A DNA stretch of 45,154 bases from the NCBI GenBank assembly GCA_018831055.1, contig JAHJRE010000234.1:1-45154 (forward strand). Reading direction: 5' to 3'. This document shows, one piece after another, positions 7,601-28,627 of the stretch. The translations under genes and the position numbers were made by a program. The stretch comes from Bacteroidota bacterium. Lineage in GTDB: Bacteria; Bacteroidota; Bacteroidia; Bacteroidales; B18-G4. Position 1 is the first letter of the stretch. Each line of letters begins with the position of its first letter. Under the pieces are notes generated by a model. The model was not told where the DNA came from. It ran no database searches and saw only the letters and a program-made list of their open reading frames with translations.

Positions 7601-7769
7601 CGGCATTTGCCCCCACATAACTTGTGGATACCGTTACAACCGGTGGATCAACACTGGGATATTCCCTTACGCCGAGGAAAGTGAATCCGATAATCCCAAA
7701 TAAAACCAGTACAATGGAGATCACAGTCGCTAATACCGGACGTTCTATGCTGACAGATGCTATATTCAT
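4692..7769 (-). CDS. RND-family efflux pump, inner-membrane subunit (HAE1/AcrB-like)
   Basis: The 1025-aa polytopic protein is the proton-driven pump of an AcrB/MexB-type exporter. It has the canonical layout: TM1 (about 11-31), a first large periplasmic porter/docking loop (32-335), TM2-6, TM7, a second periplasmic loop, and TM8-12. The proton-relay pair Asp401-Asp402 is in GLVVDDAIVVLEN on TM4, and the relay Lys is in GIVTKNGILIVEF on TM10. N-terminal ERPVLATVISIVLVL and GVREYPSVDPP are typical of multidrug-type HAE1 pumps; the charged helix signatures of heavy-metal (HME) pumps are not seen. It overlaps both neighbours by 4 bases. Specific substrates are unknown; hydrophobic drugs, bile-like compounds or lipids are possible. 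Confidence 0.96.
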   Translation of the reverse strand: MNIASVSIERPVLATVISIVLVLFGIIGFTFLGVREYPSVDPPVVTVSTSYVGANADVMESQITEPLEESINGIAGIRSLTSVSRDGRSTITVEFEIGTDMEAAANDVRDRVSRAIRNLPADTDPPIVTKSDADATPVVALTIQSSSRDLMDLTDFAINVFKERLQTIKGVSEVRIWGEKKYSIKLLLDPAKLAAYGLTPGDVRLALNRENVELPTGAIEGYGTELAIRAKGRLTTAEEFNRMIIRDSDGILIRLQDVGEAKLLPENEKAILRGNGGLPMVGVVVTPQPGANQISIADEVYKRVEQISIDLPPDIKLGYAIDTTTSIRKAITEVEETILIAFSLVVLVIFVFLRNWRTTIIPVIAIPISLISAFFIMYIAGFSINILTLLGIVLATGLVVDDAIVVLENIFHKVETGLDPVEAGHRGSKEIYFAIISTTITLAAVFLPIIFLSGLTGRLFREFGIVVAGAVLVSALVSLTLTPMMSSRMLRPTKKHKRFFRTTENWMNYLIDRYNWSLRGFIQRRWLSLVIIAIALTMILGFGSMIPSELAPLEDKSRLSVFSTAPEGVSFELMDDYMKELIAIADTIPEKQAILAVTSPGFGASGSINSGFLRISLSDPAMRDRTQQQIADMLSGVVSKYNFARSYVIQEQTIGGSRGFGLPVQFVIQAPNFDRLREVLPGFMEEVQQSDKFQVSDLNLKFNKPELAVEIDRDRARTLGVNVRDVAETLQFYFSGQRFGYFILNNKQYQVIGQANRTNRDNPLDLSSIYVRSNTGKMIQLDNLVKLSNQINPPQLYRYNRYVSATVSALPAQGVTLGQGIEEMRRISSETLDDTFSSALAGTSKEYEDSSSSLLFAFLLALVLIYLVLAAQFESYRDPLIIMFTVPLALAGALLSLWMFGQTINIFSQIGVIVLIGIVTKNGILIVEFANQRKAAGLDLKEAVIDAATRRLRPILMTSLATALGALPIAMALGAASKSRIPMGITIIGGLIFSLILTLYVIPALYTYLSGKRMRKSLARKEISS

Positions 7770-8848
7770 TGTGCTGGTTGCATGGAATTGTTTACGGGTA
7801 AAATATTTACCTGGATGGGCATGTTTTCCCTGATCTGCAAAAGACCGGTCGTGATCACCGTATCCCCGGCCATCACCCCCTGTACGATCTCAACCTCTCT
7901 TTCCGTCCTCATCCCGCTTTTTACATAAACCGGTCTTACATGACCGTTTTTGGCAAGGAATATCTTCTCTCCCCGTATGTCGGGGATGATGGCCTCACTC
8001 GGGACTAACAACGCATCAGGGATATTCGCCAGAAAAACCTCTACCCGCGCAAATGCTCCGGGCACAAGCATAAATTTTCCGTTGCTGCAATAGGCCCTGA
8101 CCGTGAATGTCCTTGTGCCCTGATTAATACGGGAATCAACAGCGTATACTTTCCCGCTGAAGATACTGTCAATGCCTACCAGCTCAAATCGTATCAAGGT
8201 ACCCTTGTCTATCCTGCCCTGATATTTCTCCTGAACGGCAAACTCTACCCTTACCGGGTCATAATCCTGAAGGTGAGTGATCAGGGTGGCAGGGGAAACA
8301 TAAGCACCCGGACTGACCATTCTTAGTCCTACTTTACCGCTGAATGGAGCTGTAATATTGCACTTGGCAATCTGAGATCTGAGGAGTTCAATCTCTGCTT
8401 CTATGATTCCTAACTGATTTACAGCTACATCGTATTCTTCCTGGCTTACCGCATTCATTTCCAGGAGTTTGGTTTTTCTGAAAACATCATCTTCAGCAAG
8501 CTTCTTCTCAAGCTCAAGCTTTTTCAGCTGAGCCTGAAGCTCACTGTCATTTATCCTTACCAGGAGGTCGCCTTTGTTTACCCGGCTGTCTTCTGAAAAA
8601 TTGATTGAGGTTATCCTTCCGGATATCTCCGTCCTTATGTCAACTTCCTCATTGGCAAGGATGGTTCCTGTTACGCGTAACTTTTCTTCAAGTTCCCGCG
8701 GATGCAATACAATCCCGTCAACGACAAGCATTGTTGTATTCCTTAAAGCCGATCCCTGTTCTCTTTCACCACAGGAAAAAAACAAAGGGAATAATAATAG
8801 GAAATATAAACCTTTGTTTTTCAGGATTAAATTTTTGTTCTTAAACAT
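7766..8848 (-). CDS. RND efflux periplasmic adaptor (membrane fusion) lipoprotein
   Basis: The 360-aa adaptor joins the RND pump to the TolC-like channel. ATG at 8846-8848 was chosen because it starts directly at a lipoprotein signal peptide with lipobox FFSC (Cys26); the frame stays open to 8905 but that extension adds an implausible 19 residues. Domain order is the first half of the biotinyl-lipoyl fold (about 62-102, with SGRITSINFSEDSRVNKGD), a helical hairpin (104-162), the second lipoyl half (NITAPFSGKVGLRMVSPGAYV, cited as family pattern at 164-184), then beta-barrel and membrane-proximal domains. Its stop overlaps the RND start by 4 bases, so it opens the operon. Confidence 0.94.
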   Translation of the reverse strand: MFKNKNLILKNKGLYFLLLFPLFFSCGEREQGSALRNTTMLVVDGIVLHPRELEEKLRVTGTILANEEVDIRTEISGRITSINFSEDSRVNKGDLLVRINDSELQAQLKKLELEKKLAEDDVFRKTKLLEMNAVSQEEYDVAVNQLGIIEAEIELLRSQIAKCNITAPFSGKVGLRMVSPGAYVSPATLITHLQDYDPVRVEFAVQEKYQGRIDKGTLIRFELVGIDSIFSGKVYAVDSRINQGTRTFTVRAYCSNGKFMLVPGAFARVEVFLANIPDALLVPSEAIIPDIRGEKIFLAKNGHVRPVYVKSGMRTEREVEIVQGVMAGDTVITTGLLQIRENMPIQVNILPVNNSMQPAQ

Positions 8849-8882
8849 ATTGCTTGAAGATCTTAGATGCAGAATAATCTTA

Positions 8883-8890
8883 CAAAAGTA
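8883..8890 (-). promoter_or_regulatory. Candidate -7 element of the RND efflux operon promoter
   Basis: On the minus strand the bases read TACTTTTG, an exact match to the Bacteroidota housekeeping -7 consensus TAnnTTTG, 34 bases upstream of the adaptor start. No clean -33 TTG lies at the usual distance, so this is a motif-based guess. Confidence 0.4.
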
Positions 8891-9085
8891 AGTAAACAAA
8901 ATCAATGCGTGTTTGGTTAATTTGCGTGTTGGTTTTTCTTAATTTTACTTTATATGTAATTGGGAAGGATAATAAATGGATGCAGGCCGCAAGTAACAGG
9001 GTTCAAGGAGTGATCCGTCACTTTTAAAATGTAGTTCTTTATTGAATTTGGATAAACGGTTTTGCTTAACAACCATAATTCAGAT

Positions 9086-16038: not shown

Positions 16039-16755
16039 TCATCCAATCTCGCTGATCCTTTTTAGTAATGGCATGTTGATGATGGTCAGCATGCTTCCCT
16101 CAATCTTTATCAGCTTATTGTCCTTAAAATCTTTAAGCACTTTCACTACACTCATGTTTGACATACCGGTCAGTTCCCCTAAGTCCGCACGTGAAAGAGA
16201 TAACTTATAAACCGGGCTTTTGTATATCTCCTCCGATAAATAGATCAAGGCATCGGCCAGCCTGCCGTTAAGCTGTTTGTACATAAGATTGGCAAAGTGC
16301 TGGAATGTGGAATTAGTGCAGTGATTCATGGTTTTAATAATCTCAGCCGCAAACTTCCCGTTATTTTCTATCAGATTTTTAATAATACTGTTCTCAATTA
16401 CACAAATGGTTGTATTCTCTATTGCCTGGGCAGTGTATCCGTATACTTTGTTCCCATAAACAGATGGCAACCCTATCAGAGTCCCTGGTGGTAAAATGTT
16501 CAACACAAGGTTTTTCCCCGATCTGGGTATTTCCATGTATATTTTTACAATTCCACTTTTGATGAAGTGTACATTGTTGGCAAACAAACCTTGTTTGAAA
16601 ATAACCTCTCCAGGCTTAAAGCTCAACTCAACTCTGTGATTGTCGCTCATTATCAGCTCCTGTTCACTAAGTTGATTGAAGCAGGAAGATTTATTTCCGC
16701 AAGCCAGACATGAATCAATCTGTTTCTCCGGTATTACCTCATTGCTGATAGACAT
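16039..16755 (-). CDS. Crp/Fnr-family regulator with FNR-type four-cysteine arrangement
   Basis: The 238-aa transcription factor has an N-terminal cysteine cluster, a cyclic-nucleotide-type beta-barrel sensor domain (about 38-125), a dimerisation helix (126-160) and a winged HTH (about 184-232). Cys16, Cys19 and Cys25 have the same CxxCx5C spacing as Cys20/23/29 of E. coli FNR, and Cys118 lies at the same distance from them as FNR Cys122, so an oxygen-sensing [4Fe-4S] cluster is plausible. The recognition helix (SNMSVVKVLKDF) lacks the FNR ExxSR signature, so a different DNA site is expected. It is divergent from the 12-gene oxidoreductase operon with 170 bases between the starts, making that operon its most likely target. 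Confidence 0.9.
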   Translation of the reverse strand: MSISNEVIPEKQIDSCLACGNKSSCFNQLSEQELIMSDNHRVELSFKPGEVIFKQGLFANNVHFIKSGIVKIYMEIPRSGKNLVLNILPPGTLIGLPSVYGNKVYGYTAQAIENTTICVIENSIIKNLIENNGKFAAEIIKTMNHCTNSTFQHFANLMYKQLNGRLADALIYLSEEIYKSPVYKLSLSRADLGELTGMSNMSVVKVLKDFKDNKLIKIEGSMLTIINMPLLKRISEIG

Positions 16756-16925: not shown

Positions 16926-17420
16926 ATGAAACTTAAATCATTGACCCTGTCTGTTTTAACATTTTTCGTTATTTGGGTTTTACTGAATAACAGCCTTTCA
17001 GGGGAAGTGGTCATGATGGGGGCCATTCTTTCCGTTGCCATTGCTTTGATCTTTTGCAAGGCGTGTAATTTGTTCAACGATATTAAGTTGAATCCCAGGG
17101 CTCTGTGGCATTGGTTCCTATTCTTTATCGTCTTTCTATTCGAACTTGTCAAAGCAAATCTTGATGTAGCCAGACGTGTAATATCTCCGAAACTTCCCAT
17201 TAATCCTGGAATAGTAGAGGTAAAAACAAAGTTAACGTCTCAACTGGGCAGAATGATCCTTGCTAATTCCATTACCCTTACTCCTGGAACTTTTACTGTT
17301 GAACTCTCAGGAGACAGGATTTTTATTCATTGGATCGATGTGAAAGGTAAAAATATAGAGGAGGCTACGGATTTGATTGTGAGAAAATTTGAAAAACATC
17401 TGGAGGTAATTTATGGTTGA
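16926..17420 (+). CDS. mrpE: Mrp-type cation antiporter subunit E (MnhE/MbhA-like)
   Basis: The 164-aa membrane protein has two or three N-terminal helices (about 5-47 and 60-80) and a soluble C-terminal region carrying the family hallmark ANSITLTPGTFTVEL (about 113-127), as in MrpE/MnhE and archaeal MbhA. It belongs to the Na+/H+ translocating module shared by Mrp antiporters and Mbh/Mbx membrane oxidoreductases. It is the first gene of a 12-gene operon and overlaps the next gene by 8 bases. Having E, F and G first, before B and C, is the Mbh/Mbx order rather than the MrpA-G order. Confidence 0.92.
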   Translation: MKLKSLTLSVLTFFVIWVLLNNSLSGEVVMMGAILSVAIALIFCKACNLFNDIKLNPRALWHWFLFFIVFLFELVKANLDVARRVISPKLPINPGIVEVKTKLTSQLGRMILANSITLTPGTFTVELSGDRIFIHWIDVKGKNIEEATDLIVRKFEKHLEVIYG

Positions 17421-17673
17421 CATAATTTTAACAATATCAGGTATAATAATATTGGTAAGCCTGATATTATCATTATACCGTTTCTTCTGGGCAGAATCGC
17501 TCTTTGACAGGGTGATCGCCTTCGACATTATGACCATTATCTCAATCTCGATCATCGCCCTGATCACTCATTTTTCGGGCAGGCTAATCTATATCGATGT
17601 TGCTATCATTTATGGATTGCTTAGTTTCCTCGGGGTTATAGTTGTGGCCAGATACCTTGAAAAAAGTTTATAG
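17413..17673 (+). CDS. mrpF: Mrp-type cation antiporter subunit F
   Basis: The 86-aa protein has three transmembrane helices and the family patterns FDRVIAFDIMT (31-41) and YIDVAIIYGLLSFLG (60-74) of MrpF/MnhF (MbhB). It is a structural part of the ion-translocating membrane module. It overlaps mrpE by 8 bases and is followed by mrpG after 2 bases, which fits strict co-translation. Confidence 0.92.
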   Translation: MVDIILTISGIIILVSLILSLYRFFWAESLFDRVIAFDIMTIISISIIALITHFSGRLIYIDVAIIYGLLSFLGVIVVARYLEKSL

Positions 17674-17675
17674 AC

Positions 17676-18041
17676 ATGGAGATCATAGATATCATTGGTG
17701 CGTTTATCACGCTTATCGGAGCAATCTTTCTTTTGCTTGGGAGCATCGGATTGATTCGAATGCCGGATGTTTTCACTCGTATTCAGGCTGGAACCAAGGC
17801 TTCTACACTGGGTACCATACTTACCCTGCTAGGAATAGGGATTATCCATTCTGAGGTTCTTGGGAAATTTTTCCTACTGATAGTATTCATCCTTATCACA
17901 AACCCCATTTCTTCACATCTGCTTGCCCGTGCAGCCCATTTTACTAAGGTTAAAAAATCGGAATTGACGGTTATTGACAGGCTGAGCCTAGATCAGGATG
18001 ATATAAATGAATCAGATACTTTAAATCAACAAGAACTATGA
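17676..18041 (+). CDS. mrpG: Mrp-type cation antiporter subunit G
   Basis: The 121-aa protein carries the MrpG/MnhG (MbhC) signature GLIRMPDVFTRIQAGTKAS (about 25-43) and TNPISSHLLARAA (about 75-87), with three membrane helices. The C-terminal 30 residues form a polar, acidic tail (DQDDINESD) beyond the conserved core. Its stop overlaps the start of the next gene by 4 bases. Role: a small subunit of the Na+/H+ antiporter module. Confidence 0.92.
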   Translation: MEIIDIIGAFITLIGAIFLLLGSIGLIRMPDVFTRIQAGTKASTLGTILTLLGIGIIHSEVLGKFFLLIVFILITNPISSHLLARAAHFTKVKKSELTVIDRLSLDQDDINESDTLNQQEL

Positions 18042-18277
18042 ACCTGTTACTCATAATTATATTATGCCTGGTCATGCTTGTGATGGCAATTACCGCTATA
18101 GCTCAGAAAAAGCTGACCGTAGCTGTTATTGCAAGCGGGATGGTAGGACTGATGGCATCGGTACTCTATTTGTTGATGGCCGCACCCGATGTGGCCATGA
18201 CTGAAGCCGCTATTGGAAGCGGACTTACAACTGTCCTGTTTTTCTATGTTTTGTTTAAAATTAAAAAAACACAATGA
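18038..18277 (+). CDS. MbhD-like antiporter subunit (DUF4040; equivalent to part of the MrpA C-terminus)
   Basis: The 79-aa, three-helix protein has the motif APDVAMTEAAIGSGLTT (about 49-65), diagnostic of the DUF4040/MbhD unit, which is fused to MrpA in ordinary Mrp antiporters but separate in Mbh/Mbx complexes. The conserved Glu of MTEA sits in the helix proposed to form part of the sodium pathway. Its separate existence is one reason to place this operon with Mbh/Mbx. It overlaps both neighbouring genes by 4 bases. Confidence 0.88.
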   Translation: MNLLLIIILCLVMLVMAITAIAQKKLTVAVIASGMVGLMASVLYLLMAAPDVAMTEAAIGSGLTTVLFFYVLFKIKKTQ

Positions 18278-18975
18278 TCCGGAATTTTGTCATATTGCTC
18301 ATTCTGGCCGGCCTGGCAGTGATATTTATCAGTCTGTTCGGGAATCACGACAGCAATTCAGGCCTTTCGCCATTGGCTCAACATTATGCCGACCGGGGAG
18401 CAGAAGAGGTGGGCGCTGCCAACCTGGTTACTGCAGTGGTGGTCACTTACAGGGGCCTTGATACCCTTGGAGAAGTGACTATACTTTTTTTGGTTGCCGC
18501 CATTGTCAGCTTTTTCCTGAAAACCAACGGTAAAGTGAAAGAGGAAGAGAAAAAGCGCGAAACCAGCGAAATAATGCTGACAGCCTCAAAATTGCTCCTG
18601 CCGATTGTTATTTTGCTCGGGGTCTACATTTTTATCAACGGCCACCTTACTCCGGGCGGTGGATTCCAGGGGGGAGCCGTGTTGGCTACAGCCTTGGTAC
18701 TGGTATTGATGGCTAATCCTGAGTTCTCGTTAAACCATCATATCATCGCTACCATTGAGTCGATCTCCGGGATAGTATTTGTTGCTGTCGGCGTGCTGGG
18801 GCTTTTGCTGGCCGGTGGTTTCCTGGATAATAGAATATTGCCCCTCGGGACTTTGGGGGAATTGTTCAGCGCTGGTGCTATCCCGGTGATCTATTCCTTC
18901 ATAGGCTTGAAGGTAGGTGCCGAGCTTTCCAATGTGCTGTCCCGCTTCCAGATTATTCAAAAGGAAGAAATGTAA
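18274..18975 (+). CDS. mrpB: Fused MbhE/MbhF-like subunit (MrpA tail plus MrpB)
   Basis: The 233-aa protein joins two units. Residues 1-85 match the MbhE-like piece (GAANLVTAVVVTYRGLDTLG at 47-66, then EVTILFLVA), which in Mrp antiporters is the end of MrpA. Residues about 100-233 are a MrpB/MnhB domain with PGGGFQGGAVLATALVL (127-143). A charged linker (KVKEEEKKRETSE) separates them. In Pyrococcus Mbh these are separate E and F proteins, so this is a natural fusion. It continues the operon, with an 18-base gap to mrpC. Confidence 0.88.
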   Translation: MIRNFVILLILAGLAVIFISLFGNHDSNSGLSPLAQHYADRGAEEVGAANLVTAVVVTYRGLDTLGEVTILFLVAAIVSFFLKTNGKVKEEEKKRETSEIMLTASKLLLPIVILLGVYIFINGHLTPGGGFQGGAVLATALVLVLMANPEFSLNHHIIATIESISGIVFVAVGVLGLLLAGGFLDNRILPLGTLGELFSAGAIPVIYSFIGLKVGAELSNVLSRFQIIQKEEM

Positions 18976-18993
18976 TTTATTAATACTTGTTCA

Positions 18994-19350
18994 ATGGATA
19001 TTATCGCATTAATAACCGCTTTTGCACTGATACTGATTGGCCTGTTCGGCATTCTGTCAAACAGGAACATCATTAAGATCATTATCGGGTTTTCTGTCCT
19101 GGATACCGGACTCCACGTGCTGATTGTCACACTGGGATATATCAGAGGCGGTACAGCTCCCATCCTGGATGATTCAGTTGGATTAACCCAGGTTTCTCAA
19201 AAAGTGGTGGATCCCCTTCCTCAGGCCCTGGTGCTTACTGCCATCGTAATCGGGTTGGGTGTGACCGCTCTGATGCTGGCCTATGCCCTGAAAATGTACC
19301 AGGCTAAAAAGTCGCTGAATATTGATGATTATAAAGAATTAAAAGGATAA
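18994..19350 (+). CDS. mrpC: Mrp-type cation antiporter subunit C (NuoK-like)
   Basis: The 118-aa, three-helix protein is the NuoK/MrpC (MbhG) homologue, with the family motif DPLPQALVLTAIVIG (72-86) and a conserved first half (LIGLFGILSNRNIIKIIIG). It links antiporter-like subunits in the membrane arm. ATG 18994 follows an 18-base gap after mrpB, and the gene ends 10 bases before the large antiporter fusion. Confidence 0.92.
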   Translation: MDIIALITAFALILIGLFGILSNRNIIKIIIGFSVLDTGLHVLIVTLGYIRGGTAPILDDSVGLTQVSQKVVDPLPQALVLTAIVIGLGVTALMLAYALKMYQAKKSLNIDDYKELKG

Positions 19351-19360
19351 TCCTTTAAGC

Positions 19361-22300
19361 ATGATTACTATGGATCCGATCTCTCCGATATATATCATTG
19401 CTGTTTCGCTGGGAATAGCTTTTTTGATGGGTGTGCTGGGAAAATCAACGAACCGTTTTTCGTATTTTCTTTTGCTGGGAGGCCTGTTGTTCAACGCGGT
19501 CGTGTCGTTTCAGTGGGTTTATTACCTGCTTCATGATCTGACAGGGCCACAGAACATTTTTACCGCCGGGTTTAAACCTCCTTTTTCCATCAACCTTTTC
19601 ATGGGCATTGAAGAGTCAGTGATCTCAGGAATGATAAACCTTGCCGGCTTGCTGGGTGCGGTTTATATGGCCCCAGCCATGAAAAAGAACGGTACAGGAA
19701 GCATGATGGTTTTCCTTGTGCTCTTCATGAGCCTGAATGTGATTTCCTTATCCCGCGACCTTTTTAACATATTTGTGTTCCTGGAAGTAGGAAGTATTGC
19801 CGTTGCCGGACTTGTCATCCTTGAGAAAGGCCTCCATGCCGTTTCTGCCGGGTTTAAATATATGGTTGCTACCAGTGTGATCGGAAGTATCCTCCTTATC
19901 GGAATCATCTTCATGTACTCGTTTACCGGATCGCTTAACCTTGACCAGATCATCGGGGATTCTACCCTTTTCAGACAAGGTGCAATGATTTCCCTGTTCC
20001 TGATCCTGATAGCTGTAATCCTCGAATTAAAACCGTTTCCGGCTAACGGGTGGGCACTGGATGTTTACCAGGCCGCTCACCCTGGCTTGTCTGCCATGCT
20101 TTCTTCCGCTGTTGCTACGGCTAATCTTTATGTGTTGTATAAGTTTTCAGGAATGGCTTCGGAGGGATTATTACACTTTCTGAGCCTGATCGGTTTGCTG
20201 ACTTTTGTCGGATCCAACTTCCTGGGTATCAATCAAACAAATGCCAGGCGCCTGCTTGGGTATTCTTCTGTCGGACAAATTGGGCTGCTCGTGGCAATTA
20301 TCGGTTTGTTACCTCATTCCGGCAATAATTTTAAAATGATTTTTATCGGTATCCTGGCCAGCCACTTTTTCGCCAAAGCGGGCTTGTTCTGGCTCGCAGG
20401 TATTGTCAGGATGGATGAGCTGAAGAAATGGTCTGCACTTCGCCAAAAACCGGTGCTGCTGTTCCTGTTTATCACTTTTATTTTAGCACTCACGGGGTTT
20501 CCCCCATTCCCTTCATTTTGGGGGAAATGGCAGTTGGTGATGGAACTGGCTAACCATGGTCAAATTGCTGCCATCATTGCTTTGCTGGTGGGTTCGGTTT
20601 TTGAAGTCGTTTATTTGTTTCGATGGATGGGTTACTCCATCAAGCTGGATACGGTCGAATTGCCAAAGGTGAACATTTCTGAAATTATACCGGTTATCCT
20701 CTTCGGCTTGGGTCTGTTTATCAGCGGGTATTATATTTCCCAGGAAACCGCTTTTGGAGATACCATCAACTTTTTGCCAATACTCGTGGTTGTCGTTCTG
20801 TTACTGGTCGATTTTCTTCCGGCGTATATTAAAAACACACTTTCCATACTGGCCACAGGATGGTTTGCATATCTTCTCCTGCCAGGTCAGGATCTGTTGA
20901 AGCAGATCTTTACGGTCATTTTCCTGGTTGGGGGAATCTTAACACTCATCCCGGGTTATCAGGTAAAAGGGAAAAGGGCCGGTTTCTACCCGTCTGCCAT
21001 GCTGATGTTCGGGGGTCTGGCTCTGCTGCTGGAAGCCGAAAACATGCTGCAGTTCTTTTTTGCATGGGAGTTAATGACCATTGGTTCGTATTTTCTGATC
21101 ATACGTGGGAAAAAATCCATGGTTCATGCATATAGCTATATCTTGTTTTCCGTTGGTGGTGCATATCTGATCCTGCTTGCTTTTGGAATGGCTTCCATTG
21201 GGAATACCGGACTAAGCCTTAACCTGCTTTCACAGATTGGATACTACCCTGCTGTTGCCCTTGCTTTGCTGGCGGTTGGGTTCATGACCAAGACCGCCTC
21301 CCTTGGACTGCATATCTGGCTCCCGGGCGCCCACGGTGAAGCTGAATCCGATGTTTCCCCGATGGTTTCAGCCATCCTCCTGAAGGCCGGGGTATTCGGA
21401 TTGATCCTGCTTATGCTCTCTGCAGGAGGTGAAAACAACCCTTATGAATATCTGTTTTATATTCTGGGATGGATTGGCGCCTTAACCGCCCTGGTTGGTA
21501 ATCTTGGGGCTGTCTTCCAGGAAGATGCCAAACGCTTGCTGGCCTATTCAAGTATTGGACAACTCGGGTACATCCTGTTTGCATTTTCTATCATGTCGCA
21601 GCTAGGATGGCTAACCGGATTTACCTATACCATTAACCATTTCATGTTTAAAGCCATTCTCTTCCTGGCTGTTGGGGGGATCGTTTTGCGCCTTAATACT
21701 CACAATATGTACGAAATGGGGGGGCTTATCAAAAAAATGCCTTTCACTTTTATTGCCCTGCTGATCGGGATTATAACGCTTGCCGGCATTCCGCCTCTTT
21801 CCGGGTTTGCAGGTAAGTGGCTCTTTTACAATGCAGTGATATTAAAAGGATGGTACTTTCAGGGGGCCATTGTGTTCTTCGCCGGTACTATTGCATTCCT
21901 TTACTGTTTTAAACTTATTTATTCCATTTTCCTGGGACAATTGAAGGATAACCACAGGAATGTGAAAGAATTGCCTTTCTGGTATCTGCTTCCGCAATAT
22001 GTATTGATATTGGGAATTATGGTTTTCTCAGCCAAACCTGATTTACTATTGAAACCTTTAGGAATCGCCCTTTCATCGGCTTTCCCATCTGACCCCCTTA
22101 CCTGGAATGGAACCACCGCCATCAGTAAACTGGGATACTGGGATGCCACAACGATCATGATGGTCATCGGGGTGATGTTTGTGATTTTACTGGGCTGGCT
22201 GATGTTGATGAGCCGCAAAGCCCAAAAGGTTAAACAATTTAATATAGTATATGCAGGGGAGAGGCCGGAACGCCCTGAACTGACACATGTTTCTCATAAT

Positions 22301-22498
22301 ATTTATGCAGGATACAATAAAGCGCTCGGGTTCATTGTAGAGCCGGGAATCACCAATTTCTGGAACTACATCACGAATACCCTGGAATCGTCCGGTAATT
22401 TTATCCGGCAACTATACAGTGGTAACGGGCAAAGCTATATCATTCATTTGGTATCATATATAGTTATAGTTTTTATCATTTACATAAGTGGCATATAG
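19361..22498 (+). CDS. Fused double antiporter-like subunit (two MrpD/NuoL/M/N-type domains)
   Basis: The 1045-aa polytopic protein contains two complete proton-antiporter (NuoL/M/N, MrpD, MbhH-type) domains in one chain. Domain 1 spans about 1-430, with the TM5 Glu in FVFLEVGS (Glu142) and the TM7 Lys in LELKPFPANGW (Lys224). Domain 2 spans about 540-960, with the TM5 Glu in FAWELMT (Glu570), the TM7 Lys in FMTKTASLGLHIWLPGAH (Lys644) and another Lys in SAILLKAGVFG (Lys675). A few extra helices join them (440-535), and the C-terminus is a soluble segment plus one last helix. P. furiosus MBS has two such pumps on separate chains (H and H'), and Mbh has one. I infer two ion-translocating steps here. 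Start ATG 19361. Confidence 0.9.
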   Translation: MITMDPISPIYIIAVSLGIAFLMGVLGKSTNRFSYFLLLGGLLFNAVVSFQWVYYLLHDLTGPQNIFTAGFKPPFSINLFMGIEESVISGMINLAGLLGAVYMAPAMKKNGTGSMMVFLVLFMSLNVISLSRDLFNIFVFLEVGSIAVAGLVILEKGLHAVSAGFKYMVATSVIGSILLIGIIFMYSFTGSLNLDQIIGDSTLFRQGAMISLFLILIAVILELKPFPANGWALDVYQAAHPGLSAMLSSAVATANLYVLYKFSGMASEGLLHFLSLIGLLTFVGSNFLGINQTNARRLLGYSSVGQIGLLVAIIGLLPHSGNNFKMIFIGILASHFFAKAGLFWLAGIVRMDELKKWSALRQKPVLLFLFITFILALTGFPPFPSFWGKWQLVMELANHGQIAAIIALLVGSVFEVVYLFRWMGYSIKLDTVELPKVNISEIIPVILFGLGLFISGYYISQETAFGDTINFLPILVVVVLLLVDFLPAYIKNTLSILATGWFAYLLLPGQDLLKQIFTVIFLVGGILTLIPGYQVKGKRAGFYPSAMLMFGGLALLLEAENMLQFFFAWELMTIGSYFLIIRGKKSMVHAYSYILFSVGGAYLILLAFGMASIGNTGLSLNLLSQIGYYPAVALALLAVGFMTKTASLGLHIWLPGAHGEAESDVSPMVSAILLKAGVFGLILLMLSAGGENNPYEYLFYILGWIGALTALVGNLGAVFQEDAKRLLAYSSIGQLGYILFAFSIMSQLGWLTGFTYTINHFMFKAILFLAVGGIVLRLNTHNMYEMGGLIKKMPFTFIALLIGIITLAGIPPLSGFAGKWLFYNAVILKGWYFQGAIVFFAGTIAFLYCFKLIYSIFLGQLKDNHRNVKELPFWYLLPQYVLILGIMVFSAKPDLLLKPLGIALSSAFPSDPLTWNGTTAISKLGYWDATTIMMVIGVMFVILLGWLMLMSRKAQKVKQFNIVYAGERPERPELTHVSHNIYAGYNKALGFIVEPGITNFWNYITNTLESSGNFIRQLYSGNGQSYIIHLVSYIVIVFIIYISGI

Positions 22499-23407
22499 AT
22501 GGAAATTTCTGTGAGCAAAATACTCTGGACATTACTCGGGTTATTTATCGTTCTGAACTGGGGACTGATCATGGGAGGGATCATGCGGAAAATCGTTGCC
22601 CGGGTGGGTAAACGATACGGCATCCCGGTATACCAGCCTTACATCGACCTGATCAAAAACTATGCTATCAGGTCGCAGATCACCCACGGGGTTATGTTTT
22701 ACCTGGGACCTGTCTTCCGGCTTTCAGGAGGTGTCGGGATCTTTCTCTTCCTGCCCTTAATCTTTGGTTCACCACACTGGTCAAATTTCTCTTTTTCCGG
22801 CGACCTGGTGCTGATCCTTTACTTCCAGTTTTTCGGTATGCTGGGTATGGCCCTGGGGGCCGGAGAGGGTGGACACCCATATTCTGCTATCGGTATCAGC
22901 CGCGGACTGTCGCAGTTCACCGCTATTGAAGTCCCGATGACCCTGGCCGTCATATCCCTGGCAATACAATACCAGACTTTGTCAATCTCCGATATTGTAG
23001 CTGCCCAGCAAGGCGGAATAACATCCTGGACCCTGGTAACAAACCCTTTTGCAACCATCGCAGCCATGCTGTCACTGCTGGGAGCTTTCGGACATTCCCC
23101 TTTTGACCTGGTAAAAGCGCCTAACGAGATCCCCATCGGACCACCCACGGAATACCACTCTACCTACCTGGGTGTCCTGCGCACCAATGCAGCCATCTTA
23201 CATGTGGTGGAAGCCGTACTCTTCATGAACCTGTTCTTTGGCGGCGCAAACAACTGGTTCGAACTCATCCTGAAAACATTCCTTATTTATTTCTGGAGTG
23301 TTTTTGTCGGGGTCGTTTTCCCAAGGTTCAGGATAGAACAGTCGGTGCGTTGGTTCCTGAAAGTACCACTGCTGTTGGGCATCATTGCGATTATCATATT
23401 CATTTAA
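22499..23407 (+). CDS. NuoH/MbhM-like membrane anchor subunit (complex I subunit 1 family)
   Basis: The 302-aa membrane protein belongs to the NuoH/HycD/MbhM family, the subunit connecting the peripheral redox arm with the ion pumps. Visible family segments are GIPVYQPYIDLIKNY (about 41-55), EVPMTLAVISLAIQY (about 144-158), HSPFDLVKAPNEIPIGPPTEY (about 199-219; pattern only) and the C-terminal PRFRIEQSVRWFLKVP. Length matches the hydrogenase/Mbx branch. ATG directly follows the stop of the antiporter fusion with no gap. The acidic loops near the quinone chamber of complex I are short, as in ferredoxin-dependent relatives. Confidence 0.9.
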   Translation: MEISVSKILWTLLGLFIVLNWGLIMGGIMRKIVARVGKRYGIPVYQPYIDLIKNYAIRSQITHGVMFYLGPVFRLSGGVGIFLFLPLIFGSPHWSNFSFSGDLVLILYFQFFGMLGMALGAGEGGHPYSAIGISRGLSQFTAIEVPMTLAVISLAIQYQTLSISDIVAAQQGGITSWTLVTNPFATIAAMLSLLGAFGHSPFDLVKAPNEIPIGPPTEYHSTYLGVLRTNAAILHVVEAVLFMNLFFGGANNWFELILKTFLIYFWSVFVGVVFPRFRIEQSVRWFLKVPLLLGIIAIIIFI

Positions 23408-23423
23408 GAAAACCGGGCACAAC

Positions 23424-24092
23424 ATGAAAGAGACAACAAATAACAACAAATTTCTTCATGAAGAAAACAAACCGCGCAAAGTGCTTGCGCCCGACGGGAG
23501 TATCATTGAGATCGACCCGATAAGAGATTACTTCTGCGAAGATCGCCCGCAGGTTTCAAAGCCGGGAAATAAGGTGGTAGAGAGATTCCTGAACTGGGCA
23601 AGGGCAGAATCGATATGGGTTTTGGGGTTTGGGACAGGATGCGGAAGTATAGAGATACCTCCCCTGATGACCCCGCGCTTCGACGCTTTTCGCTTCGGAG
23701 TGCAGACTCGCCCTACCCCCCGGCAGTCAAATGCTTTTATCATTTCCGGTTACCTTTCGGTGAAAACCCTCAAAAGGGTTATCCGAAGCTATGAACAGAT
23801 GCAAAACCCCAAGTATGTGCTTGCCCTGGGCAGCTGTACCATCAATGGGGGTATGTACTGGGATAGCTACAATACCATCAACAGGCTTGATCATTATATG
23901 CCGGTGGATGTTTATATTGCCGGTTGTATGCCACGCCCCGAAGCATTGCTCGCAGGGTTCATGAAACTCAAAGAACTGATAAAACAAGGCAAGGCCGAAA
24001 ACGCCAATAAATATATCGAGAACCTTGATTGGTACAAAGCCAACCAGAAAAAGATCATCAAGGATTGGAATATGCCCGATTATAACTGGTAA
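23424..24092 (+). CDS. NuoB/MbxJ-like [4Fe-4S] subunit lacking one cluster cysteine
   Basis: The 222-aa soluble protein is related to NuoB and hydrogenase small subunits, which carry the terminal (N2/proximal) [4Fe-4S] cluster. Ligand cysteines are Cys73 (in GTGCGSIE), Cys138 (GSCTINGG) and Cys168 (AGCMPRPEALL). In complex I the first site is a tandem Cys-Cys; here position 74 is Gly, leaving three ligands. A three-Cys, site-differentiated cluster is the feature reported for the sulfur-reducing MBS complex. The N-terminal 60 residues are a polar extension. ATG 23424 was preferred over an upstream TTG at 23385 that lies inside the NuoH-like gene. Confidence 0.88.
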   Translation: MKETTNNNKFLHEENKPRKVLAPDGSIIEIDPIRDYFCEDRPQVSKPGNKVVERFLNWARAESIWVLGFGTGCGSIEIPPLMTPRFDAFRFGVQTRPTPRQSNAFIISGYLSVKTLKRVIRSYEQMQNPKYVLALGSCTINGGMYWDSYNTINRLDHYMPVDVYIAGCMPRPEALLAGFMKLKELIKQGKAENANKYIENLDWYKANQKKIIKDWNMPDYNW

Positions 24093-24095
24093 ATC

Positions 24096-24623
24096 ATGAA
24101 AAAAATCATAGATAAAATAGGCTATAAGTTCAACCTTTCGGAAATCCAATATCAACGGGATAACCTCACTTTCTTTACCATTGATAAGGAAAGCGTGGTT
24201 CAAATGCTTACATACCTGCGTGATTATGAGGGATTCAGCCATTTTGTGCTTATGACCGCCGTGGATTGGATTGAAGACGGTTTGTTTCAGTTAACCTATA
24301 TCCTGAATAATCCCAAGGAAAAGGTTGACATAGGCATTCGTACCGTGATATTGCGGGAAAAGGCGGAAATGACCACTGCTCATCATTTGTGGAACCAGGT
24401 GGCAACGTACCAACGGGAATTGAAGGAGATGTTTGGTATACACTTCCCGGGAAGTCCGCGTATCAACGAGCCTTTCCTGCTGGAAGGATGGGATGATATC
24501 CCGCCAATGCGCCGGGATTTTGACACGAAAAAATATTCAGAAGAAACATATTTCCCTCGTCCGGGACGCAAGACCCATGACCCGGCTGAGTACATGAAAC
24601 AAAAACTATATCCCAATGAATAA
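24096..24623 (+). CDS. NuoC/MbxK-like subunit
   Basis: The 175-aa soluble protein is a NuoC (30-kDa) family member: LMTAVDWIED (52-61), the signature TYQRELKEMFGIHFPGSPR (about 104-122) and WDDIPPMRRDF (about 132-142). It has a structural role holding the NuoB- and NuoD-like subunits of the peripheral arm. It begins 3 bases after the NuoB-like stop and overlaps the NuoD-like gene by 8 bases, so the three redox-arm genes are translationally coupled. Confidence 0.9.
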   Translation: MKKIIDKIGYKFNLSEIQYQRDNLTFFTIDKESVVQMLTYLRDYEGFSHFVLMTAVDWIEDGLFQLTYILNNPKEKVDIGIRTVILREKAEMTTAHHLWNQVATYQRELKEMFGIHFPGSPRINEPFLLEGWDDIPPMRRDFDTKKYSEETYFPRPGRKTHDPAEYMKQKLYPNE

Positions 24624-25809
24624 AATGCATTGGCTGGATCCGGGATACGACCGCGCCAATTATCCTGAGAAAAGAAGCGATGGTAGCTTTGTGGTGGATA
24701 AGGCATCGCAAAAATTTGTGAAAATATGGCAGGGGCCCAATCATCCCGGTGTCACAGGAAACATGTCTATCGAACTGACTGTGAGTGGGGATGAGATTAT
24801 AGAGGCAAAAACTCATGTTGGATATCTGCACCGTGGTTTTGAGAAACTTTTTGAACGGAGGAAATATATACAGGTCTTCCCTACCTGCATCCGTATGTGT
24901 GTTGCCGAACCTGATTACAACGAGTATAACCTTGCCGCCGGCGTCGAGGAACTGGGTGGAATAGAGATTCCGGAAGCAGCTTCATGGTTGAGAACCTTAG
25001 TCCTTGAGATGGCACGCCTGCAGTCATTGCTGAGGGTTGTCCCCGGACAGGGCGGGACCACAGGGCTTGGTATCGGTGTACAATGGGGTGTTTATCTTCG
25101 GGATCTTATCCTGGATCGTTTTGAGGAACTGACCGGCGGCCGTGTCTATCATATGTTTATTATCCCGGGTGGTGTCCGGGGCCTGCTCCCATCCGGTTTC
25201 AGAAAAAGGATGAAGGAAAACCTTGCTGATATTGATGAGTTTATCGGTAATATCGATAAAGTGATGTTTAACAATGCCGTTTTTAAAAAGCGAACGGTAG
25301 GTGTTGGAATCATTGATCCCTCCTGGGTAGACAGCTACGGTATAGTAGGCCCCAATGCACGTGCTGCCGGGTTTAAAAGAGATGTGCGAAAGGATTACCC
25401 CTACCTGAAGTATAAGGAACTTGATTTTGACCCTCAGACAGCCACTGAATCGGATATTTACACGCGATCACGCATCCGTTGGCACGATCTGATCATGACA
25501 GTCGATCTGATCCGGCAGATCCTGGATAAAATCCCGGACCAGGGAGATATCAGAGCCAAAACCCCCAATGTGCTTCACTGGAAACTGCCCAAAGGTGAAA
25601 CTTATGTCCGATCCGAATCATCACGTGGGGAATACGGGTTTTACATGGTATCCGACGGATCGGCTTACCCCAGGAGAATCAACCTTCGCGGGCCAAGCTA
25701 TACTCATGCGGTTTCCCTGCTGGAAAAAATGCTGATCGGTGCTAATATTGCTGATGTTGCCAGTATCATGGTTTCCTTGCAAACCTGTCCGCCCGAAATT
25801 GAACGTTAA
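24616..25809 (+). CDS. NuoD/MbxL-like catalytic-type subunit with remnant NiFe-site cysteines
   Basis: The 397-aa protein belongs to the NuoD / group 4 hydrogenase large-subunit family: GPNHPGVTGNM (40-50), GYLHRGFEKLFERRKYIQ (69-86) and DLIMTVDLIRQILDKIP. Hydrogenases need two CxxC motifs for NiFe. Here the N-terminal site is CxxxC (Cys91, Cys95, TCIRMC) and the C-terminal site keeps one Cys (Cys391 in TCPPEIER), so a NiFe centre is unlikely. Complex I relatives lack these cysteines, so this is not a typical NuoD either. An intermediate pattern of this kind is what I recall for archaeal MbxL. The acceptor is unknown. It overlaps the NuoC-like gene by 8 bases. Confidence 0.88.
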   Translation: MNKMHWLDPGYDRANYPEKRSDGSFVVDKASQKFVKIWQGPNHPGVTGNMSIELTVSGDEIIEAKTHVGYLHRGFEKLFERRKYIQVFPTCIRMCVAEPDYNEYNLAAGVEELGGIEIPEAASWLRTLVLEMARLQSLLRVVPGQGGTTGLGIGVQWGVYLRDLILDRFEELTGGRVYHMFIIPGGVRGLLPSGFRKRMKENLADIDEFIGNIDKVMFNNAVFKKRTVGVGIIDPSWVDSYGIVGPNARAAGFKRDVRKDYPYLKYKELDFDPQTATESDIYTRSRIRWHDLIMTVDLIRQILDKIPDQGDIRAKTPNVLHWKLPKGETYVRSESSRGEYGFYMVSDGSAYPRRINLRGPSYTHAVSLLEKMLIGANIADVASIMVSLQTCPPEIER

Positions 25810-25817
25810 CAATCTTA

Positions 25818-27635
25818 ATGAATGACGGTATGAGTTCGATTAAAGATATATTATCCCCGTTTACCGCCTGGAAAAACCTTTTCAAGGAACCGGTGACCAT
25901 CAAAGATCCTTTGAGGGAAAGGCCAGGTGCTCCCCGTTACCGGGGATTTCATAAGAATGATGTGAATGCATGCATAGGATGTGGAACCTGCGAGTCGATT
26001 TGTGAAAATGAAGCCATCGATATGGTGCCTGTGGAAGGATTTAACCCAAAAGATGGCGATAGCGGCCTGCGACCAAGTATCGATTACGGTCGCTGCTGCT
26101 GGTGCGCTTTGTGCGTTGACGTTTGCACAACCGGTTCACTAACCCTGTCGAACGAGTATACCTGGGTGGATACCGATTCGGATAATTTCAGGTTTATACC
26201 CGGTATTGACAGGAAATCATGGGAAAATAATGAGCCTGGCTGGAAAAAACCGGGTAACGGATATGAATTATATGACCTTGAACGGGTGAAGATGGAACAC
26301 CTCGGGCCTGAACAACGCGATGAATCCTTTATCGAAATCATACAAGGTTTCTCGAAAGAACAGGCAGAGAAAGAAGCCGACCGCTGCGTGGAATGTGGTA
26401 TCTGCACTGCTACATGCCCGGCCCACATGGGCATCCCTGAATATATCAAGGCAATCAGAAACAACGACCTCGAGGAAGGATTACGCATTTTGTACGAAAC
26501 AAACCCTCTTCCCGAAATCTGCGGACGTATCTGTACCCATAAATGCGAAAGTGTTTGCTCTCTCAACCACCGTGGTGAACCTATCTCAATACGCTGGCTG
26601 AAAAGATATATTGCCGATCAGAACCCTGCAGAAAAGTATAAGGAGATCCTGGAAACTGACACCGTTAACAAAAATGGAAAGAAGGTAGCCATCATCGGAT
26701 CCGGGCCTTCAGGACTGTCGGCAGCCTACTATTTATCTAAGATGGGATACGAGGTGGAAATCTTTGAAAAATTGCCTCAGGCGGGCGGTATGATGCGATT
26801 TGGAATTCCTGAATACCGTTTACCTTACGACCAGTTGGATAAGGATATAAATTATATTTTATCGCTGGGTGTGAAGATACATTACAACATAACCGTTGGT
26901 AAGGATATCACCCTGGATAAAATGGGAAAAGAATTTGATGCCGTTTTTGCCGGAACCGGTTTGCATCTTGGACGCAGCACCCGTGTTGAAGGAGCAGATC
27001 ATCCGCACGTTTACCAGGCCATTGAACTTCTCCGTAAGATAACCCTTGAGGAAGAGATCCATGTGGCTGAGAAAATTGTGGTTATTGGCGGAGGGAATGT
27101 AGCTATGGATATTACCCGTTCGCTGGCACGCTTGCAAAAGCAGAAATACGGAAAAGTGCAGGTCATCGCTACCAGCCTCGAAGTGGAAGAACAAATGCCT
27201 GCCGATCGTGAAGAAGTGGTAGAAGCGCGTGAGGAAGGAGCCACCATTTTCCCGGGATGGGCCCCGCAGAGAATTGAAATCCGGGATGGTAAGATAACCG
27301 GACTGCATGTTGTCCAATGCTTATCCCTGTTCGATGCCGAAGGTAAATTCAACCCCCAGTGTAACCTGGATAATGCCCGATTCTTCGAGGGAGATATGGT
27401 TGTGGAATCAATCGGACAAGGTATGGATCTGAGCTATATCTCTGAGGATATCAAAGAAGACCTTGAAATGGGACCACGAGGCAGGATAAAGGTTAATGAT
27501 TATTTTCAAACCAGCGTTCCGTGGTTATTTATGGGAGGCGATACTATCCAGGGACCGGATGTTATTCACGGTATTGCCAACGGCCATAAAGCCGCCCTCG
27601 GTATCGATAAATATTTATTTGGCGACAAAAACTAA
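25818..27635 (+). CDS. NuoI-type ferredoxin fused to GltD/PreT-like NAD(P)H flavoprotein
   Basis: The 605-aa protein joins two modules. Residues about 1-125 are NuoI/MbxN-like, with two [4Fe-4S] sites: Cys52/55/58/62 (CIGCGTCESIC) and Cys93/96/99/103. Residues about 150-605 are a glutamate-synthase-small-subunit/PreT-like flavoprotein: Fe-S motifs Cys190/193/196/200 and Cys235/239/243/247, FAD-binding GSGPSGL (294-300), NAD(P)-binding GGGNVAMD (424-431) and FAD-closing GGDTIQGPDVIHG. In related Mbx and complex I operons NuoI is separate, so the fusion wires an NAD(P)H-FAD unit directly to the membrane complex. Nucleotide preference and direction cannot be read from sequence. ATG 25830 is an alternative start. 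Confidence 0.9.
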   Translation: MNDGMSSIKDILSPFTAWKNLFKEPVTIKDPLRERPGAPRYRGFHKNDVNACIGCGTCESICENEAIDMVPVEGFNPKDGDSGLRPSIDYGRCCWCALCVDVCTTGSLTLSNEYTWVDTDSDNFRFIPGIDRKSWENNEPGWKKPGNGYELYDLERVKMEHLGPEQRDESFIEIIQGFSKEQAEKEADRCVECGICTATCPAHMGIPEYIKAIRNNDLEEGLRILYETNPLPEICGRICTHKCESVCSLNHRGEPISIRWLKRYIADQNPAEKYKEILETDTVNKNGKKVAIIGSGPSGLSAAYYLSKMGYEVEIFEKLPQAGGMMRFGIPEYRLPYDQLDKDINYILSLGVKIHYNITVGKDITLDKMGKEFDAVFAGTGLHLGRSTRVEGADHPHVYQAIELLRKITLEEEIHVAEKIVVIGGGNVAMDITRSLARLQKQKYGKVQVIATSLEVEEQMPADREEVVEAREEGATIFPGWAPQRIEIRDGKITGLHVVQCLSLFDAEGKFNPQCNLDNARFFEGDMVVESIGQGMDLSYISEDIKEDLEMGPRGRIKVNDYFQTSVPWLFMGGDTIQGPDVIHGIANGHKAALGIDKYLFGDKN

Positions 27636-27640
27636 TCAAC

Positions 27641-28627
27641 ATGGATGTTTCAGTAAGTTACATGGGATTATCCCTGAAGAGCCCGATTATTGTCGGTAGC
27701 TCATCCCTGACGGAAAATGTGGAAAATTCTATTGCCTACCAAAAAGCTGGCGCTGGTGCCATTGTCTTAAAATCGCTTTTTGAAGAACAGATCCTGCATG
27801 ATGTCGACGAACAACGTCTGAACAATATGTACGGCTCGTTTAACGATCAGGAATACTATGCTATGTATTTCAGTAAAAAGCACAACCTGACTCAATACGT
27901 AAACCTGATCAAAAAAACGAAAGAAGCACTCGATATCCCTGTCATTGCCAGTGTCAATTGTGTGACGGCAGATGAATGGATTGCCTATGCGAAAATGATA
28001 GAAGATGCAGGAGCAGATGCCCTTGAAGTAAACCTCTTCCTGCTCCCGGCCGATGTAGATATCTCCGGCCTGGAAAAAGAAGCTATTTATTTTGAGATCA
28101 TTGAAAAGATCGGAAATGCCATTTCCATTCCCTTTTCCCTGAAAATAAGCTTCTATTTCTCAGGATTGGCCAATTTTGTCTACCAATTATCTAAAACAAA
28201 AGCCTCTGCTGTTGTTTTATTCAACAAGTTTTACAGCCCGGATGTGGATATAGAAAAGGAAAAAGTAATATCAGGAGATGTGCTTAGCTGTAAAGAACTA
28301 AATACCATGACACTGCGATGGATCGGTATCCTGTATGATAAAGTTAATATTGAACTGACGGCTTCCCGTGGCATCTTTACAGGGGAACACGTGATAAAAA
28401 ATCTGCTGGTCGGTGCTCAGGCTGTTCAGGTAGTATCAGCAATTTACAAGGAAGGACCAAAGGCCATTGAATCTATGATGAATACGCTGACTGATTGGAT
28501 GCTCAGGCACAATTATGATACCATTGCAGATTTTCGCGGAAAAGCCAGCCAAAAAAATATAAAAAGGCCTGTACTTTATGAGCGTACCCAATTTATGCGC
28601 TATTTCTCGGATGCAGGGTATAAATAA
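27641..28627 (+). CDS. Dihydroorotate-dehydrogenase-like (PreA-like) FMN protein lacking the active-site Cys
   Basis: The 328-aa protein is a TIM-barrel member of the DHOD/PreA family, with N-terminal LSLKSPIIVGSSSLTEN, PVIASVNC (100-107), and a C-terminal phosphate-binding part around GIFTGEHVIKNLLVGAQAVQVVSAIY. At the catalytic loop, where DHOD has NxSCPN, this protein reads NLFLLP (131-136), so the catalytic Cys is absent and dihydroorotate or pyrimidine oxidation by the usual mechanism is doubtful. It begins 5 bases after the NuoI-GltD fusion. In dihydropyrimidine dehydrogenase a GltD-like and a DHOD-like unit work together, so this pair may form a flavin module for the membrane complex. 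Confidence 0.85.
   Translation: MDVSVSYMGLSLKSPIIVGSSSLTENVENSIAYQKAGAGAIVLKSLFEEQILHDVDEQRLNNMYGSFNDQEYYAMYFSKKHNLTQYVNLIKKTKEALDIPVIASVNCVTADEWIAYAKMIEDAGADALEVNLFLLPADVDISGLEKEAIYFEIIEKIGNAISIPFSLKISFYFSGLANFVYQLSKTKASAVVLFNKFYSPDVDIEKEKVISGDVLSCKELNTMTLRWIGILYDKVNIELTASRGIFTGEHVIKNLLVGAQAVQVVSAIYKEGPKAIESMMNTLTDWMLRHNYDTIADFRGKASQKNIKRPVLYERTQFMRYFSDAGYK

Follow-up and report, generated by a model that had tools for sequence, protein, structure and literature searches.

The window, i.e. the whole 45,154-nucleotide stretch of DNA analysed here, carries a gene, of a kind present in many anaerobic bacteria, that joins a NuoI-type ferredoxin domain to a GltD-type NAD(P)H flavoprotein module in one chain, and this fusion is the last core gene of a 12-gene operon for Mrp and complex-I-type subunits (16926-27635). 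For the encoded complex we propose an ion-pumping, NAD(P)H-linked MBS-type sulfane reductase with linear electron flow, a proposal to which we give about an even chance of being correct and for which we infer the cofactor use, the substrate, the direction and the pumping. The features of the fusion subunit are the following:

25818..27635, + strand: fusion subunit, 605 aa, NuoI/MbsN-type 8Fe ferredoxin domain plus GltD/NfnB/StnC-type FAD-2x[4Fe-4S] NAD(P)H module
25968..26135, + strand: NuoI-type dicluster domain, residues 51-106; C52, 55, 58, 62 and C93, 94, 96, 99, 103, all invariant
26322..26630, + strand: Fer4_20 domain, residues 169-271, with two GltD-type [4Fe-4S] sites; C190, 193, 196, 200, 235, 239, 243, 247
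26601-26603, + strand: Lys262, in the Fer4_20 domain, at the position of the NfnB Glu ligand and of StnC Lys170
26679..27569, + strand: Pyr_redox_2 FAD/NAD(P) double Rossmann domain, residues 288-584
26817-26819, + strand: R334, in the Pyr_redox_2 domain, counterpart of NfnB Arg187
27087..27182, + strand: nucleotide site GGGNVAMD...T452-S-L454-E455, with L454-E455 at the site of the NADP 2'-phosphate Arg pair of other-type relatives

The original prediction had placed NuoI-type and GltD-type halves in one chain, and indeed the ORF runs from an ATG start through 605 codons as a single continuous frame with zero internal stops. All of the motifs named in advance are present in its translation, namely four cysteine groups (residues 52-62, 93-103, 190-200 and 235-247), GSGPSG (residues 294-299) and GGGNVAMD (residues 424-431). 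Pfam matches comprise Fer4_9 (51-106), Fer4_20 (169-271) and Pyr_redox_2 (288-584), and among profile models those for NuoI match residues 9-125 and those of the GltD type about 150-604. Comparison with homologues points to the in-frame ATG of codon 5 (25830) as the possible true start of the fusion. All 17 of the 17 cysteines are invariant in 86/86 aligned sequences, from which we conclude that the motif pattern of the fusion is not due to chance; the FAD and dinucleotide motifs are likewise invariant among the aligned relatives.

The fusion had initially been considered unusual when set against the separate NuoI-like subunit of known systems, a view that did not hold, since the architecture is already catalogued in Thermotoga maritima and hundreds of other genomes. 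The NCBIfam model NF010590 (PRK13984, 'putative oxidoreductase') spans the window fusion end to end (residues 7-603; model positions 7-609 of 611) with a full-length match of 907.8 bits, which is below the curated cut-off of 946. We therefore file the window fusion as having the same architecture as NF010590/PRK13984 only, i.e. by its sequence as a close relative just under the cut-off; among 14 named control genomes, T. maritima alone has the family, with a match above it. The fusion itself is known to databases, and an undescribed architecture is ruled out given that NF010590 covers it in full length, while no function for the NF010590/PRK13984 family was found in the literature searched. 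A scan of GTDB contigs returned at least 566 fusion relatives, of which the best 80 were taken further, and the phyla within these best 80 of at least 566 are Bacteroidota (including Prolixibacter type strains), Spirochaetes, Cloacimonadota, Neomarinimicrobiota, Fermentibacteria and Delongbacteria. The fusion was present in 44/295 genomes drawn evenly across the order of the window. Contigs of viral origin gave pattern matches, yet none of them encodes a fusion relative.

One uninterrupted frame of 595-669 aa was found at 86/90 loci, the exceptions being two contig ends (L103, L074), a frameshift (L040) and a different gene (L105). The fusion is also intact in a one-contig genome (G367) and in the RefSeq genomes of Prolixibacter strains (L024, L025), which together bears out the continuity in independent assemblies that the original prediction had left to be checked. 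That an assembly error or a frameshift has joined two genes is next to impossible in view of the same architecture at >80 loci, cultured strains and a one-contig genome included, and of a curated full-length family model; two joined genes or another artefact are ruled out by the independent genomes.

The other genes of the operon and those adjoining it are:

16039..16755, - strand: Crp/Fnr-type regulator, divergent, CxxCx5C N-terminus, adjoining the operon start
16926-17420, + strand: MrpE (NCBIfam)
17413-17673, + strand: MrpF (from operon position and sequence read by eye)
17676-18041, + strand: MrpG (from operon position and sequence read by eye)
18038..18277, + strand: MbhD/MbsD-type subunit
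18274..18975, + strand: MbsE-type (MbhE + MrpB) subunit
18994..19350, + strand: MrpC/NuoK-type subunit
19361..22498, + strand: fused double antiporter subunit, 1045 aa, NuoN-type half plus NuoM/MbsH-type half
22499..23407, + strand: NuoH/MbsM-type membrane anchor
23424..24092, + strand: NuoB/MbsJ-type subunit with three proximal [4Fe-4S] cluster cysteines, open iron site predicted
24096..24623, + strand: NuoC/MbsK-type subunit
24616..25809, + strand: NuoD/MbsL-type subunit that lacks the quinone residues H38/Y87 and, like MBS, has two residual NiFe-site cysteines
27641..28627, + strand: DHOD-like FMN-type protein (PRK07565), 328 aa, 5 bp downstream of the fusion gene

The preceding complex gene is NuoD at every fusion locus whose contig extends far enough upstream. 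Neither NuoE/F/G genes nor an NfnA gene are present in the window operon, and this gene content agrees with the prediction that a membrane enzyme of the Mrp/complex-I type without NuoE/F/G genes carries an NAD(P)H-FAD module on its NuoI-type entry subunit.

We take the core of the complex to be of the MBS type, since its peripheral subunits, in a comparison made against PDB sequences only, resemble those of MBS much more than those of MBH or complex I. The scores against P. furiosus MBS (6u8y) are 224 bits for NuoB (next 131), 292 bits for NuoD (next 195), 160 bits for the MbsE-type subunit (next 63) and 88 bits for the NuoI half (next 52, among NuoI-type chains). MBS, known as an archaeal enzyme driven by ferredoxin, is regarded as an evolutionary step between membrane hydrogenases and complex I. 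Diagnostic features of MBS are a three-Cys proximal cluster and the absence of the equivalents of Nqo4 His38/Tyr87, and its catalysis is independent of the residual NiFe-site cysteines (PMC7684303). The window NuoB has three proximal-cluster cysteines as equivalents of MbsJ C28, C93 and C123, within motifs (GTGCG, GSC and GCMPRP) that are kept in relatives; among 74 NuoB homologues the first is found in 69/69 listed, the second in 74/74 and the third in 73/74. The equivalents of the quinone residues His38/Tyr87 in the window NuoD are Thr and Val, and among NuoD homologues the His38 position is Thr in 84/84 and Tyr87 occurs in none of the listed variants. Both residual NiFe-site cysteines (MbsL C85 and C385 equivalents) are present in the window NuoD and are not universal among relatives. 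A group 4 [NiFe] hydrogenase (MBH) was rejected, the four NiFe-site cysteines of the large subunit being incomplete, and of the features of complex I (Nuo) the quinone-site residues and the NuoE/F/G input genes are missing.

General homology to complex I would also suit an NAD(P)H:quinone oxidoreductase, i.e. complex I with a different NADH module, as would the own genome of the window, in which no second NuoD and so neither complex I nor a group 4 hydrogenase, nor any other second complex-I-type enzyme, was found. However, the Thr and Val at the His38/Tyr87 positions of the window, the lack of His among the homologues and of Tyr among their listed variants, and best matches to MBS rather than to complex I make quinone reduction quite improbable.

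Compared with P. furiosus MBS/Mbx (6u8y), the MBS-type complex of the window has in common the subunit types apart from the input module, the three-Cys cluster, the loss of the quinone residues and the one-chain MbsE. In contrast, MbsN of P. furiosus is a separate 208-aa ferredoxin-accepting subunit, whereas the window joins its MbsN type to a GltD-type flavoprotein; in the window lineage, moreover, one chain holds both large antiporter subunits, unlike in P. furiosus. Since the MbsN equivalent is fused to a GltD-type module, the complex is an MBS variant and not plain MBS.

In the reaction that we propose, NAD(P)H would reduce the FAD of the fused GltD-type domain, from which electrons would pass in line through the two GltD-type [4Fe-4S] clusters and the two NuoI-type clusters to the three-Cys proximal cluster of the NuoB subunit. 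The open iron of this cluster would reduce sulfane sulfur in polysulfide or in some related S-S bond, and this reduction would power the Mrp/antiporter-type membrane arm to move H+ or Na+, with NADH as the probably preferred input in the window lineage and NADPH in the sister lineage. The weakest points of this sulfane-reductase reading are the small redox span of NADH, the substrate and the cluster-to-cluster path (model pTM 0.70). The potential of polysulfide lies near -270 mV. That of NADH in cells is about -280 mV (PMC9304861). This small difference would provide little energy to drive the pump, except where the sulfide level stays low or a donor of lower potential supplies the electrons. 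Induction of T. maritima mbxA by sulfur (4.4-fold, PMC9431562) counts in favour of sulfane reduction. No sulfur-metabolism gene is regularly found beside the operon.

MBS receives electrons from ferredoxin at MbsN (PMC7684303), and such an input would be kept in a ferredoxin:NAD(P)+ oxidoreductase, in which reduced ferredoxin would feed the NuoI-type clusters and electrons would end on NAD(P)+ at the fused FAD, coupled to pumping. This was the first proposal for P. furiosus Mbx (PMC6349859, PMC2678158), and electron transfer from ferredoxin to NAD(P) is energetically favourable. On the other hand, the conserved NuoB/NuoD chamber and the open proximal cluster would be left without a role and the job is already covered by Rnf, which the own genome carries (L106), so that we consider ferredoxin oxidation unlikely, if worth keeping in mind. 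In known relatives, the NuoB/NuoD chamber is where catalysis couples to pumping.

The path through the fused FAD can be compared with two characterized flavoproteins. NfnB has a conserved Gx2ER motif, two Arg on the NADP 2'-phosphate and Arg187 at the FAD N5 (PMC6405883), and its FAD-proximal cluster is ligated by the Glu of that motif, whereas in StnC this cluster is ligated by Lys170 and the FAD is non-bifurcating although the Arg is kept, without N5 contact (PMC10482914). The position of the NfnB Glu ligand corresponds in the fusion to Lys262, which is Lys in 86/86 aligned sequences and aligns with K170 of the NfnABC large subunit (9bov_A); R334, the equivalent of Arg187, is also found in 86/86, and StnC has the same Arg without contact to the FAD N5. 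By analogy with StnC, these residues suggest that electron transfer through the fused FAD is linear.

The original prediction had raised flavin-based bifurcation as in NfnB. In such a scheme, one electron would go from the fused FAD along the Fe-S chain to the membrane arm and the other to a high-potential acceptor, a role for which a separate NfnA or the DHOD-like FMN protein could serve. Bifurcation would solve the energy shortfall, and it is in keeping with the invariant R334 as the equivalent of the N5-binding Arg187, with the flavin-type protein gene adjoining the fusion in about half of the loci and with the NfnAB genes beside the complex in one genome, where NfnA, NfnB and DHOD-like genes lie directly upstream of a B-type operon (L154:582-4019). 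Nevertheless, 86/86 sequences have Lys where NfnB has its Glu ligand, a trait shared with the non-bifurcating StnC, which retains the Arg, and the operon is without NfnA; both points argue against it. Moreover, NfnAB is adjacent to the complex at the L154 locus only and is not a general neighbour, and the DHOD-like family is too widespread to be specific, all of which makes bifurcation a long shot. Bifurcation and quinone reduction are thus each contradicted at a residue position that was tested.

With regard to the cofactor, the Arg pair for the NADP 2'-phosphate is replaced by Leu-Glu (L454-E455) in 83/83 sequences of the window lineage and kept in the sister lineage, so that an NfnB-type NADPH site is missing from the window lineage. 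In the predicted fusion model (pLDDT 79, pTM 0.70), the C-terminal half of which matches NfnI-L with a TM of 0.85 normalised to the target, L454-E455 directly follow strand 449-453, the second of the nucleotide domain. The position after this strand is the usual place of 2'-phosphate or ribose recognition. Taken from sequence and model, the module of the window lineage probably prefers NADH, and that of the sister lineage, with its Arg pair, is predicted to use NADPH.

Similar modules occur in other contexts. StnC of StnABC and the NfnABC large subunit (8oh5_C, 9bov_A) share with the fusion a GltD-type NAD(P)H-FAD module feeding Nuo-type Fe-S clusters and a Lys in the place where the FAD-proximal cluster is ligated; they are, however, soluble and joined to a NuoG-type domain, whereas the fusion has a NuoI-type domain and a membrane pump and has lost the Arg pair in the window lineage. 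In addition, StnC partners a HydBC-type StnAB module, whereas the window operon is without NuoE/F genes. NfnB/NfnL (5jca, 4ylf) have the fold, the FAD site and the N5 arginine residue in common with the fusion, which differs in the Lys for the Glu ligand, the Leu-Glu for the Arg pair and an operon without an NfnA partner. E. coli AegA/YgfT likewise carry a ferredoxin-type domain ahead of a GltD-type domain in one chain (PMC8097209), but with another ferredoxin domain, formate-dependent urate use and no membrane pump. Finally, dihydropyrimidine dehydrogenase and PreT-PreA bring together a GltD-type module, an 8Fe ferredoxin part and a DHOD-type protein, as does the window, in which, by contrast, the ferredoxin part is NuoI-type and belongs to a membrane complex and the DHOD-like protein is without the NLSC catalytic Cys.

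The two types of nucleotide site largely follow two kinds of operon. The 105 fusion sequences divide into 86 with L-E and 19 with YRRR, and most YRRR forms (B) constitute a distinct lineage with two separate antiporter genes, whereas the antiporters are fused in the A lineage; one operon of each kind is present in genomes G208, G315, G407 and G254. Three loci (L141-L143) combine an A-type core and a fused antiporter with a YRRR flavoprotein. They nest inside the A lineage in the NuoB+C+D tree, and forcing all YRRR rows together was disfavoured, with a p-AU of 0.023 for this tree and of 0.045 for the membrane subunits. In the tree of the GltD half with the nucleotide segment left out, the separation of the same three loci from all L-E rows is fully supported, and placing their GltD half with that of their core relatives was rejected at 2.6e-67; the NuoI-half tree allowed no decision on a swap (p-AU 0.71). 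These trees suggest that, in three genomes, the fused gene has likely exchanged its flavoprotein half. Alternatively, an early A branch may have kept an ancestral YRRR form, because the core rejections are of moderate strength and the trees had already been seen when the group was named. Speculatively, and with considerable doubt on our side, the NAD(P)H half might be exchanged between NADH and NADPH types while the pump stays constant, which would allow an MBS-type sulfane-reducing pump to run on either pool, with some genomes having both, and the DHOD-like flavoprotein might provide a second electron exit or entry.

If the sulfane-reductase proposal is true, there is a widespread bacterial form of MBS wired directly to NAD(P)H and a second route, other than NuoE/F/G, by which a complex-I relative can gain nicotinamide input. 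Given the contrast between Arg pair and Leu-Glu, and four genomes that hold both kinds of operon, the choice of cofactor can be tested directly in cultured Prolixibacter and Thermotoga. A description of the fusion as MBS/Mbx input was not found in the literature searched, the reach of which did not extend to older papers on the T. maritima mbx operon. Nor did this incomplete literature contain the assignment to an MBS-type operon, the StnC-like Lys signature, the split of the cofactor site or the likely module swap, all of which may have been described earlier.

Around the operon, a DHOD-like gene lies directly 3' of the fusion in 39/74 loci with enough sequence and opens several B-type operons. 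These two placements favour a functional tie to the complex, which is weakened, as is the candidacy of the gene as a specific partner, by the commonness of the family (PRK07565) in the order (238/295 genomes; five copies in the own genome). By eye, the window protein (27641-28627) is without the class 1A DHOD NLSC catalytic Cys and keeps likely FMN-site lysines. A Crp/Fnr-type homologue, divergent and within 1.5 kb, is found at 15/38 related operons, and it is possible that this protein regulates the operon. Putative promoter and terminator sites in the window were no more frequent than in shuffled sequence. A small gene that by eye resembles a CBS-domain pair, absent from the window, recurs just downstream of the fusion or of the DHOD-like gene at 21/74 loci (including L035, L037, L048, L050, L061, L063 and L080) and is a possible nucleotide-sensing regulator. 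At two Spirochaete loci, a short ORF right after the fusion (L091:11813-12268, L094:5502-5936) is, by eye, possibly rubrerythrin/ferritin-like. The own genome also carries a separate NfnAB pair beside a Stn/NfnABC-like cluster (L105, G000:C103), in which NfnAB is followed by NuoE/NuoF-like proteins and then by a 1234-aa GltD-NuoG/Fdh-like protein. Elsewhere in the window, an RND efflux trio is encoded at 3382-8905 on the - strand, comprising an OEP, an AcrB-type pump and an HlyD/CusB-type fusion protein.
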